Source: a virus. Taken from it: a stretch of DNA of 21,352 bases. Below, in pieces: positions 4,530 through 21,352 of this stretch (the first letter of the stretch is position 1; each line of letters starts with the position of its first letter). The position numbers and the translations under genes were made by a program. The notes below the pieces were generated by a model. That model saw only the letters and a program-made list of their open reading frames with translations. It did not search any database and was not told the origin of the DNA. The stretch lies in the IMG/VR virus record IMGVR_UViG_3300017775_000012, positions 1-21,352 of that record. One strand, 5' to 3'.

Positions 4530-5708
4530 ATGAAGGTTTTAAATAAAAAAATGATTGACACTGTTGTTGTTGTTGAGAAGTTAGGTTCTCGCTATATGGC
4601 AACAGATTCTGATAATAAAGATTACACGTCTTATATTTACCCACCAGCAAGAAGTAAAGCATATAAAAATAATAATGCTTTGATGGTTGTTGAAACCAGT
4701 TCTGGTAAGCTTTATTGGAAAGCGGTTGATATGGATGTTTATAAAGATACACTTAATGTACTTAAACGTGATGAGTCCATTGAAGTACCTGAAGGTCATA
4801 ATGACGCAGTTGATTTTATTCACGATTCTTATAAACTTAAACCTAAGGGTTTAGTTATGAATGAACTTAAATGGAAGTATCTTGTAAGATCTGCAGTTCG
4901 TGGTAAGAATATAATGATGACTGGTTCTGCTGGTTCGGGTAAAACTATGGCTGCTAAGTCATTAGTTAATGCTCTAGAGCGCCCTGATTTTTATTTTAAT
5001 TTAGGTGCGACTCAAGATCCACGTTCTACTTTAATCGGTAATACTCATTTTAATAAAGATGATGGAACTTATTTTTCTGAGTCTTTGTTTGTTAAAGCTA
5101 TCAAAACACCAGATGCGATTATCTTACTTGATGAGTTAACTCGCGCACATCCCGATGCTTGGAATATCTTAATGACAGTTCTTGATCCAGGTCAACGTTA
5201 TCTTAGATTAGATGAAGCTGATGGGTCGGAAACGATTAATGTAGCCCCTGGTGTTACTTTTATAGCTACCGCTAATATAGGTAATGAGTATACAGCTACT
5301 AGAGTTTTAGATAAAGCTCTATTAGATAGATTCACTGTTATTGAAATGGATCTTCTTGATGAAAAGGAAGAACACGGTTTACTTAGCTATATGTTCCCTC
5401 ATGTTGATGTTGATGAACTTTCGAAAATTGCTAAGATTGCAAATCTAACGCGGCTTGAATCTAATAATGAAAACCCACGGATTGATAATGGAATCAGTAC
5501 AAGAACTTCTGTTGAAATTGCTGGATTACTTTATGATGGTTTTGCTCTAATAGAAGCGGCTGACATTACAATATATCCACAGTATGATGCTACAGGCGGT
5601 ACAGATTCTGAAAGAACTTTTGTTAAACAAATTGTACAAAAGTTTATTGATGATGGATCTGATGATGAGTTATTTACTGAAGAAGAGATGGAAGAAACTG
5701 CCGCATAA
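4530..5708 (+). CDS. MoxR/CobS-like AAA+ ATPase
   Basis: This is a 392-aa ATPase. Walker A is GSAGSGKT (132-139), Walker B is IILLDE (197-202), sensor 1 lies in FIATAN, and a likely arginine finger is in LLDRF. The hydrophobic lead-in to Walker A (GKNIMMTG) and the DELTRAHPDAWN helix match the MoxR/CobS branch of AAA+ proteins. These remodel partner proteins and usually work with a VWA-domain protein. The first 110 residues form a separate N-terminal domain, and the C terminus is strongly acidic (DDELFTEEEMEETAA). Such ATPases are often annotated as CobS in marine T4-like phages, although cobalt chelation has not been established there. Its likely partner is the VWA protein at 6327, which has the same promoter and leader. 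AAGGAG gives ATG 4530. Confidence 0.9.
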   Translation: MKVLNKKMIDTVVVVEKLGSRYMATDSDNKDYTSYIYPPARSKAYKNNNALMVVETSSGKLYWKAVDMDVYKDTLNVLKRDESIEVPEGHNDAVDFIHDSYKLKPKGLVMNELKWKYLVRSAVRGKNIMMTGSAGSGKTMAAKSLVNALERPDFYFNLGATQDPRSTLIGNTHFNKDDGTYFSESLFVKAIKTPDAIILLDELTRAHPDAWNILMTVLDPGQRYLRLDEADGSETINVAPGVTFIATANIGNEYTATRVLDKALLDRFTVIEMDLLDEKEEHGLLSYMFPHVDVDELSKIAKIANLTRLESNNENPRIDNGISTRTSVEIAGLLYDGFALIEAADITIYPQYDATGGTDSERTFVKQIVQKFIDDGSDDELFTEEEMEETAA

Positions 5709-6326: not shown

Positions 6327-8306
6327 ATGTTAAAGTTAAATCAATATTCAGATTTTTGGATTAATAATACATCTTCTGCTGTTGACGATTTACTTGGCTT
6401 AAATGAAGAAATTAAAAAAGGTAGAGACCTAGTTGCTTTAACTAGTTACCGTCGCGCTATAGCTAACTTTGTTAGCATTATAACTAATGAGAATATCCCT
6501 GTTAGATTTAAAGATGGTCAATCATTTACTGATGGCAAATCTGTAACTGTTGGTGCAAATTTAAATGATAAAAATTTTGATGTTGCTGTTGGATTAGCGT
6601 TACATGAAGGATCTCACATCAAATTATCTGATTTCGGATTTTTAGGAATGATGACTGATTATATCGAAAAACCTATATACAAATTAGCTGATGAAAAGGG
6701 TTTTAGTAGCTGGGAAGCTGAACTTCATATTAAATCATTATTAAATTATATTGAAGATAGAAGAATTGATTATTATGTATTTAGTACATCACCTGGTTAT
6801 AAAGGATATTACCACTCGATGTATGATAAATATTTTAATAATAAAGTTATTGATAAAGCTTTACAGTCTAGTGAATACACCGATGAGGTTTGGAAATCTT
6901 ATGAGTTTAGACTTATAAATCTTCATAATAAAAATCGTAATTTAAATGCACTAAACGGACTTAAAGAAATTTGGAATCTTATTGATTTAAAAAATATATC
7001 AAGACTTAGTAATACAACTCAAGTATTTAATGTTGCTATTGAAGTTTATAAAGTTATATTAAATAACTTAGGTGATGCGGTAGAAGAAGTTGATAAAGAC
7101 ACTGGCGAGATTAATACTAGACCAGCCGGAACTAATGAAAATGCAGATGATAATGGTACTACTGTTGACACTGGTGATGCTAAAATGAAACCTGCTGGTG
7201 ATGAAATAAAACCTGGTAATGGTTCTGATCTGGAAGAATTGTCACCTAGACAAAAATCTTTATTAGAAAAAGCTGTACAGAAGCAAGAAGATTTTATAAA
7301 AGGTAATATTAAAAAAGCTAAGCTTAGTAAAAAAGATTCTAAAACAATGAATACTTTAGAAACAGCCGGTGCTAGATATGAAGAAATTAATTTAGAAAAT
7401 AAATGGGGTTATAAATCATCTGTAAAAACATTAGTGATAAGGGAATTAACTAAAGACTTGATAGATTCAGATGAGTTTAGAGTAGCCAACGATTGGAATG
7501 AAAAATCTTATGATAGAAGTTATAATGGTTATGACTATGTTGAAGAAGGTATTAGATTGGGCACAATGCTTGGTCGTAAGTTAAAAATTCGTGGCGAAGA
7601 AAAAACAATTAAATATAATCGTAAAAGTACTGGTAAGATCGATCGTCGCATTATTGCCGAACTCGGTTTTAATAACGAAAATGTTTTTAGTCAAGTATTT
7701 GTAGAAAGATATAATAAAGCAGATGTACATATATCAATTGATGCCTCAGGATCTATGAATGGCTACTGTTGGAATAAGGCTATGACTGCTGCAATTGCAA
7801 TAATTAAAGCTGCTGAAATGGCCGGTAATATACACGTTGTTGTAACTATAAGATCAACACACGATAATGCTAAAACTCCACTGATTATGGTAGTATATGA
7901 TTCTAAAAAAGATAAGCTCACTAAAGTAAAATCTTTATTTAAATATTTAAGCCCAGCGGGTACGACTCCTGAAGGTTTAACATTCGAAGCTATATCAAAA
8001 GAGTTAATACCTGGTGGACGTGATAATGATTCTTATTTCATTAATTTTTCAGATGGAATGCCAATGTTTTATAATGATGAAATAAATTATAATGGTGATA
8101 CTGCTATTAATCATACTAGAAAAAGTATTGAGAATATACGTAGAGATGGAATTAAAGTATTAAGTTACTTTATTGGTGAGTCCTACACACGCACACATCA
8201 TGCTGATGATTTCAAAAAAATGTATGGTGTTGTTGCTAGGTTTATTAATCCTACTAATATGATGGAAGTGGCTAGAACAATGAATAATAAATTTTTGGAA
8301 AGGTAG
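6327..8306 (+). CDS. HEXXH plus VWA-domain protein, CobT-like partner of the AAA+ ATPase
   Basis: The 659-aa protein has an HEGSH motif (93-97) in ALHEGSHIKLSDF, which fits the zinc-binding HEXXH of zincin-like proteases. A charged low-complexity linker follows (about 250-310). A C-terminal von Willebrand A domain carries the metal-ion site DASGS (472-476), a likely MIDAS threonine in AGTTPEG (T546) and an FSDGMP segment. VWA proteins of this kind pair with MoxR/CobS AAA+ ATPases, as in CobS/CobT. The same promoter, identical leader and location strongly support pairing with the ATPase at 4530. Cyanophage homologues are sometimes called peptidases. Whether the HEXXH site is active cannot be told from sequence: a third zinc ligand is not obvious. 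Confidence 0.85.
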   Translation: MLKLNQYSDFWINNTSSAVDDLLGLNEEIKKGRDLVALTSYRRAIANFVSIITNENIPVRFKDGQSFTDGKSVTVGANLNDKNFDVAVGLALHEGSHIKLSDFGFLGMMTDYIEKPIYKLADEKGFSSWEAELHIKSLLNYIEDRRIDYYVFSTSPGYKGYYHSMYDKYFNNKVIDKALQSSEYTDEVWKSYEFRLINLHNKNRNLNALNGLKEIWNLIDLKNISRLSNTTQVFNVAIEVYKVILNNLGDAVEEVDKDTGEINTRPAGTNENADDNGTTVDTGDAKMKPAGDEIKPGNGSDLEELSPRQKSLLEKAVQKQEDFIKGNIKKAKLSKKDSKTMNTLETAGARYEEINLENKWGYKSSVKTLVIRELTKDLIDSDEFRVANDWNEKSYDRSYNGYDYVEEGIRLGTMLGRKLKIRGEEKTIKYNRKSTGKIDRRIIAELGFNNENVFSQVFVERYNKADVHISIDASGSMNGYCWNKAMTAAIAIIKAAEMAGNIHVVVTIRSTHDNAKTPLIMVVYDSKKDKLTKVKSLFKYLSPAGTTPEGLTFEAISKELIPGGRDNDSYFINFSDGMPMFYNDEINYNGDTAINHTRKSIENIRRDGIKVLSYFIGESYTRTHHADDFKKMYGVVARFINPTNMMEVARTMNNKFLER

Positions 8307-8526: not shown

Positions 8527-9003
8527 ATGACTAAAGTTGCATTCAACACAAACCTACCAACGTTCCTTTCTAGGGACGAATTTTTAACACCTTTCGATAA
8601 AGTATTTGATAAGTTCTTTGAACAATCATTTCCAGATGTTGTAAAAACAGTTGGAGTTAAACCTTTTGAAGGATCTGCATATCCAAAGGTAAATGTATAT
8701 GAGTATGATGATAAGATTGGTATCATTGCTGAAATTCCTGGACTAGATAAAGATCAACTATATATAGAAGTTGAGGATGGTGTATTAACTATATCAGGTG
8801 ACAAACACGGTTTTGATGATACTAATAGTGCCAAAGTTATTAGAAGAGAATTAAAACATTCTTCATTCAAGCGTTCTTTCGAACTCGGCGATTCGCTAGA
8901 TGGCGATAGTGTAAAGGCTACGTTTAAAGATGGTGTGCTTTCCATAAACATACCTAAGCTAGAGCCGGCGCAGCCTAAAAAGAAGTTCATTAAGATTAGC
9001 TAG
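8527..9003 (+). CDS. hsp20: Small heat-shock protein, Hsp20/alpha-crystallin family
   Basis: This 158-aa chaperone has an alpha-crystallin domain from about residue 55 to 145. The KVNVYEYDDKIGIIAEIPGL start strand and the EVEDGVLTISGDK hairpin lead to the diagnostic ATFKDGVLSINIPK strand. A short N-terminal region contains LPTFLSRDEFLTPFDKVFD, and a short Lys-rich tail follows. Hsp20 proteins hold unfolding proteins in large oligomers without ATP. They are common in marine T4-like phages, where a role in virion assembly or scaffold folding has been suggested. AAGGAG precedes ATG 8527. No TTGCCC-type promoter is nearby. Its TAG stop overlaps the GTG start of the next gene. Confidence 0.95.
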   Translation: MTKVAFNTNLPTFLSRDEFLTPFDKVFDKFFEQSFPDVVKTVGVKPFEGSAYPKVNVYEYDDKIGIIAEIPGLDKDQLYIEVEDGVLTISGDKHGFDDTNSAKVIRRELKHSSFKRSFELGDSLDGDSVKATFKDGVLSINIPKLEPAQPKKKFIKIS

Positions 9004-9243: not shown

Positions 9244-9681
9244 ATGGCTAAAAAAATAAAAAAGAGTTATCACAGTTATCATAAAGATGGTAAAAGATAT
9301 ATGTCATGCATGAATGGGTGTGGTACATATGATAGGGTTGTTGAAGAAACAGTATCTATTAAATGTTGGAAATGTATATTTAATATAATAGGATTTCCTA
9401 AAGAACCCAAATCAACTTACAAACCAACAGGCCGTCCAGCGGGATGGCATTGGATGGTAGAGTTTGTAGATAAAGATGGTAATGTGTTTTATAAGGGTAA
9501 AGAACAACCTAAACTGAAGGGCACGCTACCACCTACTAAGGTGAAACCCAAAAAGAAAATAAAACGTAGAACTAAAGAACAGCTTTTGATTGAAAGAGAA
9601 AAGAAGAAAAAGGTAGCTCTCAAGAAAGCAATCCAGCAACAAAAAGATTTTATTAACCATAAGTTCAAAGCGGAAGCATAG
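9244..9681 (+). CDS. Cys/Lys-rich hypothetical protein, 145 aa
   Basis: The N terminus is basic, and the cysteines CMNGCG (about 22-27) and CWKC (about 41-44) form two pairs able to bind zinc. An aromatic patch with GRPAGWHWMVEFVDKDGNV follows. The C-terminal 55 residues are extremely Lys-rich and helical. The layout suggests a nucleic-acid-binding protein with a zinc ribbon, but the family is not recognised. The likely transcript from promoter copy 5 leaves only about seven bases before ATG 9244, with no ribosome binding site, so translation may be leaderless. Its stop TAG overlaps the GTG of peptide deformylase. Confidence 0.75.
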   Translation: MAKKIKKSYHSYHKDGKRYMSCMNGCGTYDRVVEETVSIKCWKCIFNIIGFPKEPKSTYKPTGRPAGWHWMVEFVDKDGNVFYKGKEQPKLKGTLPPTKVKPKKKIKRRTKEQLLIEREKKKKVALKKAIQQQKDFINHKFKAEA

Positions 9682-10274
9682 TGATTTTAATCAATGATAA
9701 ATTTAAAGAATTTAGTACAACTAAATGTGATGATATAGATTTAGAAGCTGGTGAAAAACTAGCGGCTGAGTTGTTTAAACATTTAAACAAATCTAAGAGT
9801 GGTGTTGGGTTAGCCGCACCTCAAATAGGTGAATTAAAACGGGTATGTGTTATTAACGTTAAGTATCCAATGTATTTGATTAACCCACGAATTGTGAAAT
9901 CAGAAGGTGAAATTGTTTTTTATGAGGGATGCTTATCTTATCCAAATCAAGCAATCAGAACAAAACGATTTACAAACATTACAGTCGAAGCTGATAACTT
10001 CGAAGGAAACTCAATGGACTTTACAGTTGGGAATGATCTAGATACTCTAGAGTGCGTAGCAGTACAGCATGAGATAGATCACTTAAATGGTGTGCTAATG
10101 TTTGATAGACAGGTGGAATTAAAACCAGTAGTAGCTAAGAAGAAGATTGGTAGAAACGAATTGGTTACTATAACAAATAACAATGATAATTCAACTAAGA
10201 TTCTTAAATATAAAAAAGCAATGCCTTTGCTTAATACAGGTGAATGGGTATTCACTAATATGGAGACTACATGA
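9681..10274 (+). CDS. def: Peptide deformylase
   Basis: All three signature motifs are intact: GVGLAAPQIG (41-50), EGCLSYP (82-88) and QHEIDHLNG (129-137). Cys84 and His130 and His134 bind the metal and Glu131 is catalytic. The enzyme removes the formyl group from the N-terminal methionine of new proteins. Phage-encoded forms are known from marine cyanophages. At 197 aa it has about 45 residues beyond the usual end of short phage enzymes, a Lys- and Asn-rich tail starting near VVAKKKIGRN. The start is GTG 9681, sharing a base with the previous stop (TAGTG). It overlaps the next gene by ATGA. Confidence 0.96.
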   Translation: MILINDKFKEFSTTKCDDIDLEAGEKLAAELFKHLNKSKSGVGLAAPQIGELKRVCVINVKYPMYLINPRIVKSEGEIVFYEGCLSYPNQAIRTKRFTNITVEADNFEGNSMDFTVGNDLDTLECVAVQHEIDHLNGVLMFDRQVELKPVVAKKKIGRNELVTITNNNDNSTKILKYKKAMPLLNTGEWVFTNMETT

Positions 10275-10579: not shown

Positions 10580-10930
10580 ATGAATGATATAAAAACAGAG
10601 AACCGAATATCTAAGTTAGAAGAACAACTTGATTCTATTAATTTTAAATTACATGATAATAGAAGATTGTTAATAAAGATTGTAAGTCAATCAGAGGACT
10701 TATTAGATGCTTTCGAATGTATGCATAATCTTATTGATAATTTTATATTACCAGATGGTTTAGATGGTTTCGAAAAACACGCAGAAAATCTTCCCAACCC
10801 ATTATATATAAAGGAATATAGAAGTATGGCTGAGGTTATACATGAAAAAATAATGGAATTTAAACAATTCGAAAAGGAATTGGAAAGATATAAAGATGAA
10901 CTCATACCAGGATCCATGGGCGAAGCATGA
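10580..10930 (+). CDS. Coiled-coil hypothetical protein, 116 aa
   Basis: Two charged helical regions with heptad-like spacing are visible, at about residues 5-45 (ENRISKLEEQLDSINFKL) and 80-110 (EVIHEKIMEFKQFEKELERY). A less regular middle contains the Pro/Gly stretch LPDGLDG. No known motif is visible. AGAAGG lies ahead of ATG 10580. It overlaps the next gene by 35 bases. A structural or adaptor role is plausible but unsupported. Confidence 0.7.
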   Translation: MNDIKTENRISKLEEQLDSINFKLHDNRRLLIKIVSQSEDLLDAFECMHNLIDNFILPDGLDGFEKHAENLPNPLYIKEYRSMAEVIHEKIMEFKQFEKELERYKDELIPGSMGEA

Positions 10931-11087
10931 TGCTAAATTTTACATACCATCAGAAACACACAAATATTTAATAAGTTTATTAGAAGATTCAATTGAGACA
11001 GGGGATTACGTTCTAGTAGAACGTGCAATAAGTATTTTAGAAGAATTAGAAGATGATGAAAGTTATAATCAATCCGAAGAATATTAA
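10896..11087 (+). CDS. Hypothetical acidic protein, 63 aa
   Basis: The small acidic protein starts MNSYQDPWAKHDAKFYIPSE, followed by two helices (THKYLISLLEDSI and VLVERAISILEELEDD). The only in-frame ATG is at 10896, 35 bases inside the preceding gene. The family is not recognised. Its stop lies just nine bases before the 5' end of the tmRNA, so the tmRNA is probably cut from a transcript shared with this gene. Confidence 0.6.
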   Translation: MNSYQDPWAKHDAKFYIPSETHKYLISLLEDSIETGDYVLVERAISILEELEDDESYNQSEEY

Positions 11088-11096
11088 TAATAATAT

Positions 11097-11519
11097 GGGC
11101 CTGACTGGAAATCGACAGGTGTATATTGATAATAAAGTGCAGCAGAGATTGAGTATGTCTCGTAACAAAAGACTCAACAAACAAGCTGGCGAGGATATTA
11201 ACCTTGCAGGGTTGGTAATAGATTGGCATTTAGCTGATACTGATCAGGTTGCTGAATTATTCAGCGCACCTAGTCTGGAGCACCAACCAATTTACGCTTA
11301 CGCGTAGGTTACTGAGTTGTCTAACACTCGGTCATAAAATAAGTTAGACGAACCCTCTTTAGTTAGGATGGAAGTTAGAGATTAAAGAAACTACCAGTTG
11401 GTTACTCTGAGTAAAGTAACAAGTAGGTTGTAGGTGACTACTAGCAGGAACCTAACTAAGCTGTGAATGACTTGTTATTAAGTACAGACTGGACTAGGGT
11501 TCGAATCCCTACAGGTCCA
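11097..11519 (+). ncRNA. ssrA: tmRNA with unusually long tag frame
   Basis: The 5' end GGGCCTGACTGGAAATCGAC matches the tRNA-like start of tmRNA. GGGCCTG (11097-11103) pairs with CAGGTCC (11512-11518, one G-U pair), then A11519. The T arm TAGGG-TTCGAAT-CCCTA (11495-11511) is perfect. Pseudoknot 1 is clear: GAGA (11145-11148) with TCTC (11158-11161), and TTGAGT (11149-11154) with ACTCAA (11172-11177). A second pseudoknot pairs 11311-11317 with 11326-11332 and GTCTAAC (11319-11325) with GTTAGAC (11343-11349). The tag most likely resumes at GCT 11185, the 89th base, close to the E. coli position. It reads AGEDINLAG and on to QPIYAYA, stopping at TAG 11305-11307: 40 codons. tmRNA rescues stalled ribosomes and tags the product for proteolysis. 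CCA is not encoded. Confidence 0.92.
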
Positions 11520-11537
11520 CTAAGAACTCTTATAAAG

Positions 11538-20410: not shown

Positions 20411-21352
20411 ATGGCCGATGTCACATATGGTTGCATAGATCCTGCAGCAAAAAACTATGATTCTAATAATGTTGGATGTGATCCCCTTTTCTTCGATCCT
20501 ATATCAGGGATAGAACCATATCTCGAAAACGAAAGATATTGTTGCAGGTATCTGGATGTTTATGGTTGCATGGACCCTGATGCAAAAAACTATATCTCAA
20601 ACGCAACTATGGATGATGGAAGTTGTGAATATGAAGATCCACCAGTTGATGTATATGGTTGCACGGACCCTGATGCAAAAAACTATAACCCCAACGCAAC
20701 TATAGATGATGGAACTTGTGAATACGATGCCCCATCATCTGATGTCTATGGTTGCATGGATCCTATGGCAAAGAACTATGATAGATTTGCAACTATAGAT
20801 AATGGAAGTTGCGAATTTGAGGATTGGTTACCCGACCCTGATGTATATGGTTGTACGGATCCTGATGCAAAAAACTATAACCCAAACGCAACTATGGATG
20901 ATGGAGAGTGTGAATATGATGTTTATGGTTGCATGGATCCTGAAGCAACAAACTATATCCCCAACGCAACGTTTCAGACTCCGTTCACTTGTGAATATGA
21001 GGAGGAGCCACCATTTGGTGTTCGTGGTTGTACGGATCCTGATGCAAAAAACTATAACTCAAACGCAGTTATAGATGATGGAAGTTGTGGATATGATGAT
21101 ACTCCTGTATTTGGTTGTACGGACGAAGAAGCAATTAATTATGTGGCTTCAGCAACTGACGATGATGGATCGTGTCAGTATGCAAGCGACGATGAAGAAG
21201 AAGATGAAGATGATGATGAAGTATTTGGGTGCACTGATATCGACGCATCTAATTATAACCCCGACGCTACATTAGATGATGGCAGTTGTGAATATGATAC
21301 ATATGGGTGCACTGATATCGACGCATCTAATTATAACCCCGACGCTACATTA
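20411..21352 (+). CDS. Cys-rich repeat protein (GCTDPDAxNYNPxAT type), 3' partial
   Basis: The frame is open to the end of the window (314 codons), so the C terminus is missing. It starts MADVTYGCIDPAAKNYD and contains ten repeats of about 24-35 aa, the consensus being YGCTDPDAKNYNP then ATxDDGSCEY. Each complete unit has two cysteines (GC and SC) and acidic DDGSC loops like those of thrombospondin type 3 or EF-hand calcium sites. Acidic linkers vary, including a run of Glu/Asp before repeat nine. Such repeats are common in secreted proteins of marine bacteria and their phages. The place after gp6 and the DNRLRE protein suggests a tail fibre or host-contact protein. AGGAG precedes ATG 20411. 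Confidence 0.85.
   Translation, partial: MADVTYGCIDPAAKNYDSNNVGCDPLFFDPISGIEPYLENERYCCRYLDVYGCMDPDAKNYISNATMDDGSCEYEDPPVDVYGCTDPDAKNYNPNATIDDGTCEYDAPSSDVYGCMDPMAKNYDRFATIDNGSCEFEDWLPDPDVYGCTDPDAKNYNPNATMDDGECEYDVYGCMDPEATNYIPNATFQTPFTCEYEEEPPFGVRGCTDPDAKNYNSNAVIDDGSCGYDDTPVFGCTDEEAINYVASATDDDGSCQYASDDEEEDEDDDEVFGCTDIDASNYNPDATLDDGSCEYDTYGCTDIDASNYNPDATL
21227..21352 (+). repeat. Exact 48-base direct repeat within the Cys-rich gene
   Basis: Bases 21227-21274 and 21305-21352 are identical over 48 positions and offset by 78 bases (26 codons). They encode repeats nine and ten. The second copy reaches the window end, so the identity may run further and more copies may follow. Earlier repeats have diverged, so this is the youngest duplication. 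Confidence 0.95.

Follow-up and report, generated by a model that had tools for sequence, protein, structure and literature searches.

A one-piece tmRNA gene in a virus record

The stretch of DNA that we analysed, called the window here, is a virus record of 21,352 bases which carries a one-piece tmRNA gene on its forward strand [Table 1]. The match to the bacterial tmRNA model RF00023 covers 11097-11522 (+) with 78.3 bits against a cut-off of 47 (E 3.6e-29), and ARAGORN also calls a tmRNA, at 11097-11520, with a tag of 23 residues starting from GAT at 11236. A preliminary description, made from the sequence alone, had proposed a phage tmRNA at 11097-11519 with a full acceptor stem, a T arm and two pseudoknots; both programs agree on the gene, and consensus folding of 67 non-redundant relatives bore out its parts, with covariation in the acceptor stem, T arm, pseudoknot 1 (PK1), helix 5 and pseudoknot 2 (PK2). 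The acceptor stem of the window has the G3-U70 wobble, which is the alanine identity pair, together with A73, and CCA is absent from the gene sequence. G-U was found at pair 3-70 in all 67 relatives, and the remaining acceptor pairs covary (GGGGCTG/CAGCTCC, GGGCCCG/CGGGTCC, GGGGGTG/CACCTCC, and others).

In stem 2 of PK1, each of the five core pairs is kept in 67/67 relatives with covariation, and 865 of 871 cells are paired in PK2 across the same set. PK1 and PK2 are clear and the candidate PK3 and PK4 stems are partly supported across relatives; the number of pseudoknots varies among tmRNAs. The stop codon of the tag frame falls in helix 5, and the frame closes with a hydrophobic degron-like end. 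At the resume codon, a small hairpin with five or more stem pairs can form in 66/67 relatives, as against 33% of shuffles, and it occurs in compensatory forms (GGCGA/TCGCT, GGTGA/TCACT, GACGAAT/ATTCGTT, and GCGAGG/CCTTGC). This hairpin resembles helix m of E. coli tmRNA, which is a prediction from energy calculations only (PMC1168896).

Table 1. Features of the tmRNA locus in the window
Feature	Position	Strand	Evidence
Small acidic protein gene, possible co-transcribed partner	10896..11087	+	Ends 9 nt before the tmRNA
One-piece tmRNA gene, mature, without CCA	11097..11519	+	RF00023, ARAGORN, covarying acceptor stem in relatives
Acceptor stem, 5' strand GGGCCTG, including G3 of G3-U70	11097..11103	+	7/7 pairs with 11512-11518
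Pseudoknot 1 (PK1), GAGA/TCTC and TTGAGT/ACTCAA	11145..11177	+	Covariation, 67 non-redundant relatives
Resume codon GGC (Gly)	11188..11190	+	A at -4 and T at -1 in 74/74; upstream in-frame stops in relatives L125 and L025
Tag frame, 39 codons, GEDINLAGLVIDWHLADTDQVAELFSAPSLEHQPIYAYA, stop TAG 11305-11307	11188..11304	+	Open in 74/74 relatives
Small hairpin at the resume codon, GCGAGG/CCTTGC	11189..11207	+	Relatives, compensatory forms
Tag module GLVIDWHLA, conserved	11209..11235	+	Core pN/pS in a motif-independent sample
Degron-like C-terminal end YAYA, within helix 5	11293..11304	+	C-terminal conservation, 74 relatives
Pseudoknot 2 (PK2)	11312..11349	+	Covariation, 401/402 and 464/469 paired cells
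Acceptor stem, 3' strand CAGGTCC, and discriminator A	11512..11519	+	Sequence; A73 in 74/74 unique relatives

Distribution of the long-tag family

Relatives were first gathered through an HD-protein neighbour and a PK1 pattern, which gave nine further tmRNA sequences, all above the RF00023 cut-off. A degenerate pattern of the tag motif matched at least 119 stretches over viral contigs; among the matches listed, each sits in a long tag and none in an ordinary protein, and a few leave the contig mid-tag. Searching one genome per species of 84,980 bacterial and archaeal species with the motif pattern (GG at its start) gave 14 matches, 13 of them in unrelated contexts, and the sole true copy lies on a 7.5 kb contig of the marine MAG TMED198, which is taxonomically unclassified. 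The family set comprises 74 unique full-length genes of about 400-450 nt, with 67 non-redundant sequences for folding. The tag gave no convincing match among 50,697 phage records; at the DNA level, direct similarity within the phage collection was limited to short pieces, mostly in the T-arm region, and no match was obtained with an exact 3'-end pattern over viral contigs or with the PK1 pattern over bacterial genomes.

ARAGORN, a standard gene finder, finds 41 of the 74 members and misses 33, and the tags that it reports are 11-25 residues long and in 40 of the 41 cases a suffix of the long tag. We infer that these misses and short calls are the reason why the class, which occurs on over a hundred viral contigs, was overlooked. 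The family appears to be widespread in viral metagenomes and unreported, and the comparisons give good support to the long-tag tmRNA being a new variant of tmRNA, in phages. In bacterial relatives of TMED198, the tags have 9-10 residues (one is likely a miscall) and begin between bases 94 and 99 of the gene, near the start at base 92 in the window.

The resume codon and the tag frame

The preliminary description had translation resume at GCT 11185, base 89 of the gene. Its reading frame is correct; the codon is not, because A at -4 and T at -1 are invariant in 74/74 unique members at GGC 11188, base 92. PK1 is nearly identical in the first aligned relatives, in which the codon 12-13 nt past its GACTC is GGC, GAC or GAT (GGC in the window), and the resume codon follows the PK1 core by 11-14 nt among the 74 unique relatives. 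In the short-tag relative L025, PK1 is unchanged, TGA stands in frame two codons ahead of GGC, and the tag, which is of ordinary length, reads GNTANFAYA; an in-frame stop closely upstream of the resume codon is also present in L125. The L025 tmRNA (479-824) is possibly a form without the inserted module. In E. coli, the resume codon lies 11 nt from PK1 and A86, at -4, is required, while the distance itself is not critical (PMC2481249).

From the resume codon onward, the frames share the motif and the end: GEDINLAGLVIDWHLADTDQVAELFSAPSLEHQPIYAYA in the window, DESNSLDGLVIDWHLAEYDYSPMVPVVNDEPTYAYAA in L018 and GDNSLEGLDIDWHLAEYDYPAAPISRKADVQPTYAFA in L022. Since the tmRNA supplies its own alanine, the same 40-residue peptide results under either start, so that the 40 residues first proposed stand as 39 codons plus the charged alanine, AGEDINLAGLVIDWHLADTDQVAELFSAPSLEHQPIYAYA, and not as 40 codons. 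The frame that ends at TAG 11305 is open in 74/74 relatives at 34-42 codons (median 36.5), and the two alternative frames stop early in nearly all of them. Both the choice of frame and the roughly 40-residue tag ending in YAYA were sound. Comparing the tag frame across the 74 members gave the same long frame, with one layout: the motif LxGLxIDWHLA, common to all (DL replaces GL in two), then a variable linker, and then a degron-like end, usually YAYA or AYAA, which is kept in nearly all members (YAYA, AYAA, YAAA and similar).

Tags in the current database are most often 10 aa long (PMC11915505), and the mRNA-like region ranged from 48 to 126 nt in a 2005 alignment, with the maximum in a diatom plastid (PMC1168896). 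The 39-codon tag is thus very long, yet not outside all published lengths, and the range of 8-35 with which it had been compared was slightly too narrow.

Selection on the tag as protein

Searching with the motif could have biased the sample towards long tags, and a second search, anchored on the PK2 pattern and blind to the tag, was made to check this ascertainment bias. It gave a long tag in every locus with sufficient upstream sequence. The suspected bias was not upheld, as PK1- and PK2-anchored searches again gave long tags. The motif varies in the blind set (VDWHLA, IDWHMA, IDWHLT, IDWHLF, and IDWQFA), with W and D invariant. The pN/pS of the six-residue core was 0.04 in frame, as against 0.60 and 1.37 in the other frames, and that of the C-terminal end was 0.48, as against 1.82 and 2.30; across estimates, the C-terminal value was 0.32-0.48. 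The linker is near neutral (0.94). The first six tag codons, with a pN/pS of 1.12, are shaped by RNA more than by protein, and the tag-coding region is partly under RNA constraint too, through the resume hairpin and helix 5.

The frame-specific core pN/pS shows that the stretch which precedes the 23 residues called by ARAGORN is translated and selected as protein. Judged from these substitution patterns, translation of the entire long tag is almost certain, and protein-level selection on the tag module is well supported.

A proposed two-part tag and its possible handlers

We propose that the RNA acts in trans-translation in the ordinary way and that its tag combines two parts, a ClpX-type degron at the end and a docking motif inside, and we put the probability of this reading at about 0.6. 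The phage gene would yield a working one-piece tmRNA, alanine-charged by the host synthetase via G3-U70, which together with host SmpB would enter ribosomes stalled on broken mRNAs, where translation would resume at GGC 11188. The stalled chain would gain A plus 39 residues and be released at TAG 11305. The last residues, QPIYAYA (usually QPTYAYAA in relatives), would act as a ClpX-type C-terminal degron, and the inserted N-terminal module, LxGLxIDWHLA, would serve to dock an adaptor, chaperone or protease, with a variable, selectively loose linker between the two. During infection, ribosomes would be freed and the debris sent to a handler which the short host tag engages less or not at all. 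The tmRNA identity and the resume site are well supported by comparison; the docking role of the module and its partner are suggested by the conservation pattern, at the probability already given, and activity in cells, use of host SmpB and recognition of the end by ClpX are predictions. Host SmpB is presumed because a search of 14 phage contigs with long-tag tmRNAs gave no phage SmpB.

GLxIDWHLA is absent from known tags, and the phage tag is about four times the usual length. Tags are usually regarded as short degrons; here a second protein motif is retained under strong selection, which implies a receptor in infected cells. Probably the motif directs rescued proteins to one specific handler during infection. 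The preliminary description suggested that extra targeting information might reside in a long tag, and the conservation of GLxIDWHLA in relatives lends this more weight. Conceivably, though with the odds somewhat against it, IDWHLA is a phage-specific address to a new adaptor, protease or compartment, diverting products from the host disposal route and possibly involving the small acidic protein encoded directly upstream of the tmRNA. If true, this address would be a phage-rewired ribosome quality control pathway.

We looked for a partner in the phages themselves. No SmpB, SspB or Lon (Lon_C) domains were found in the 14 phage contigs, all of which are possibly fragments. ClpP-like proteins occur in two of the 14 (L216 and L217); these ClpP-family proteins could be prohead proteases. 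The motif was absent from other proteins in about 1.6 Mb of phage DNA, and so the presumed docking site has no second user there. Comparison of the tag with Pfam and with solved structures (PDB) gave chance-level matches only (e.g., a chitinase GLDIDW stretch), and AlphaFold returned a low-confidence unstructured peptide (mean pLDDT 61).

Alternative readings of the same data concern either the extent of the tag or the use of its module. Translation might resume later, at GAT 11236, to give 23 residues, with the preceding stretch serving as an RNA spacer. ARAGORN's output favours this, as does the tolerance of E. coli for the distance between PK1 and the resume codon (PMC2481249), but the start called by ARAGORN shifts among members (tags of 11-25 aa, with 33/74 missed), the upstream site has A(-4) and T(-1) without exception, and the supposed spacer is conserved as protein. 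We give this reading hardly any credence: upstream resume signals and protein-level conservation rule out the 23-residue tag, and with it falls the shorter, later-starting tag raised in the preliminary description, as the upstream segment is conserved as amino acids and the resume signals precede it. The long tag, unlike a start at 11236, would give peptides containing GEDINLAGLVIDWHLA or AGEDINLAGLVIDWHLA. It is just as improbable that the IDWHLA stretch is kept for RNA structure (a possible hairpin TTGGC/GCTGA or GCCAA) and not for the peptide. RNAalifold does propose a small hairpin with consistent pairs, and even the third positions of the GGG TTG codons hardly vary; however, the great majority of blind-set substitutions are synonymous, and this in the tag frame only (0.04 versus 0.60 and 1.37), and this frame-specific pN/pS rules out conservation of the motif by RNA alone.

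If the module is read as peptide, it could still be a non-degradative address that sequesters, protects or relocates tagged proteins, or acts as a decoy for a protease or defence protein of the host. The motif, conserved as protein, does not resemble known degrons, and a lytic phage might profit from blocked host proteolysis; yet the C-terminal end is degron-like in nearly all members and has a pN/pS of 0.32-0.48, and we consider such an address unlikely. A role during synthesis, by control of pausing or release in the exit tunnel or by a tag length that clears the stalled chain from it, is more doubtful again. The invariant W and D of the blind set and a length of 34-42 codons, about as much chain as the ribosome exit tunnel accommodates, are consistent with it, but conservative hydrophobic swaps are tolerated (I to V; L to M or F), and tag length differs by up to eight codons, whereas known arrest peptides have fixed spacing.

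Likeness to known systems

With the bacterial one-piece tmRNA (RF00023, ssrA), the phage family shares the tRNA-like domain with G3-U70, PK1, PK2, helix 5 around the stop, and a resume codon about 11 nt past PK1 with A at -4. It differs in the tag, which has 34-42 codons and a conserved module inside, where the bacterial tag has about 10 residues, and in the lower RF00023 score of 78 bits in the window, as against 137-197 in the bacterial set of TMED198 relatives. The Mesoplasma florum ssrA tag (mf-ssrA), which has 27 residues and ends in NYAFA, is also longer than usual, with a similar tail. In M. florum, Lon (mf-Lon) reads its own distinctive ssrA tag, a precedent for matching between tag and protease (PMC8138137); that host, however, has no ClpXP and its tag lacks the shared motif, and the phages here gave no sign of Lon in 14 contigs. 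The E. coli ssrA tag is likewise two-part, with an adaptor site N-terminal of the ClpX-recognised end, to which SspB binds (PMC8138137), but both sites lie within 11 residues, whereas the phage module is roughly 20 residues upstream and the 14 contigs held no SspB. The diatom plastid tmRNA of Odontella sinensis, with an mRNA-like region of 126 nt (PMC1168896), is equally long and is likened to the phage tag by length alone.

Phage tmRNAs described in the available portions of two papers include those of mycobacteriophages such as Bxz1 and Wildcat, that of Bacillus phage G, and the two-piece tmRNA of phage Melnitz, and these portions report no long tag with a conserved motif (PMC4131195, PMC9004378). 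Other phage tmRNAs found by ARAGORN have tags of 13-15 residues, as against 34-42 codons. We noted permuted (two-piece) phage tmRNAs in L029, L035, L040, L041, L044, L046, L049 and others, with tags of 13-15 residues (e.g., ANDNYYTEELRLAA and ANDNFAPQGYALAA).

Phages, host and neighbouring genes

A 164.8 kb relative encodes T4-type portal, capsid and baseplate proteins. Among annotated phages, Flavobacterium phage immuto, Microcystis phage Mel-JY01 and an uncultured phage of 484 kb come closest by capsid and baseplate, with 49-53% capsid identity. Flavobacterium phage immuto has phosphohydrolase and baseplate genes in a similar order and no tmRNA within the stretch examined. A Bacteroidota host is our guess from these nearest phages, and we call the phages marine because the MAG TMED198 is marine and because of the kind of metagenomes from which the family members come, which we take to be marine. 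The 164.8 kb relative also encodes a DruA-like protein (PF14236, 97.6 bits; L190 11039-12232) shortly 3' of its tmRNA.

The small acidic protein of the window matches its family HMM with E 9e-7. In 39 loci, a gene of this family occurs no more than 1.5 kb 5' of the tmRNA, in most cases with a gap of 3-7 nt between the two, and the family members (the window; L072, L167, L156 and others) have about 45-60 aa with the pattern L..LEEA.E..DW..V.E.I..L. They are probably helical and gave no significant PHROG or Pfam match. We regard the small acidic protein as a candidate partner of the tag.

Elsewhere, the window encodes an AAA+ ATPase of MoxR/CobS type (4530-5708) followed by a large VWA-type-partner-like protein (6327-8306), likely a chaperone pair, as well as HSP20 (8527-9003), a peptide deformylase (9681-10274) and a thioredoxin-like WCGPC protein (2604-2861). 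A tail-region protein made of repeats of the type YGCTDPDAKNYNPNATIDDGTCEY occupies 20411-21352, and a manA RNA motif (RF01745, 71.3 bits) is present in a related phage contig (L014 8657-8852).
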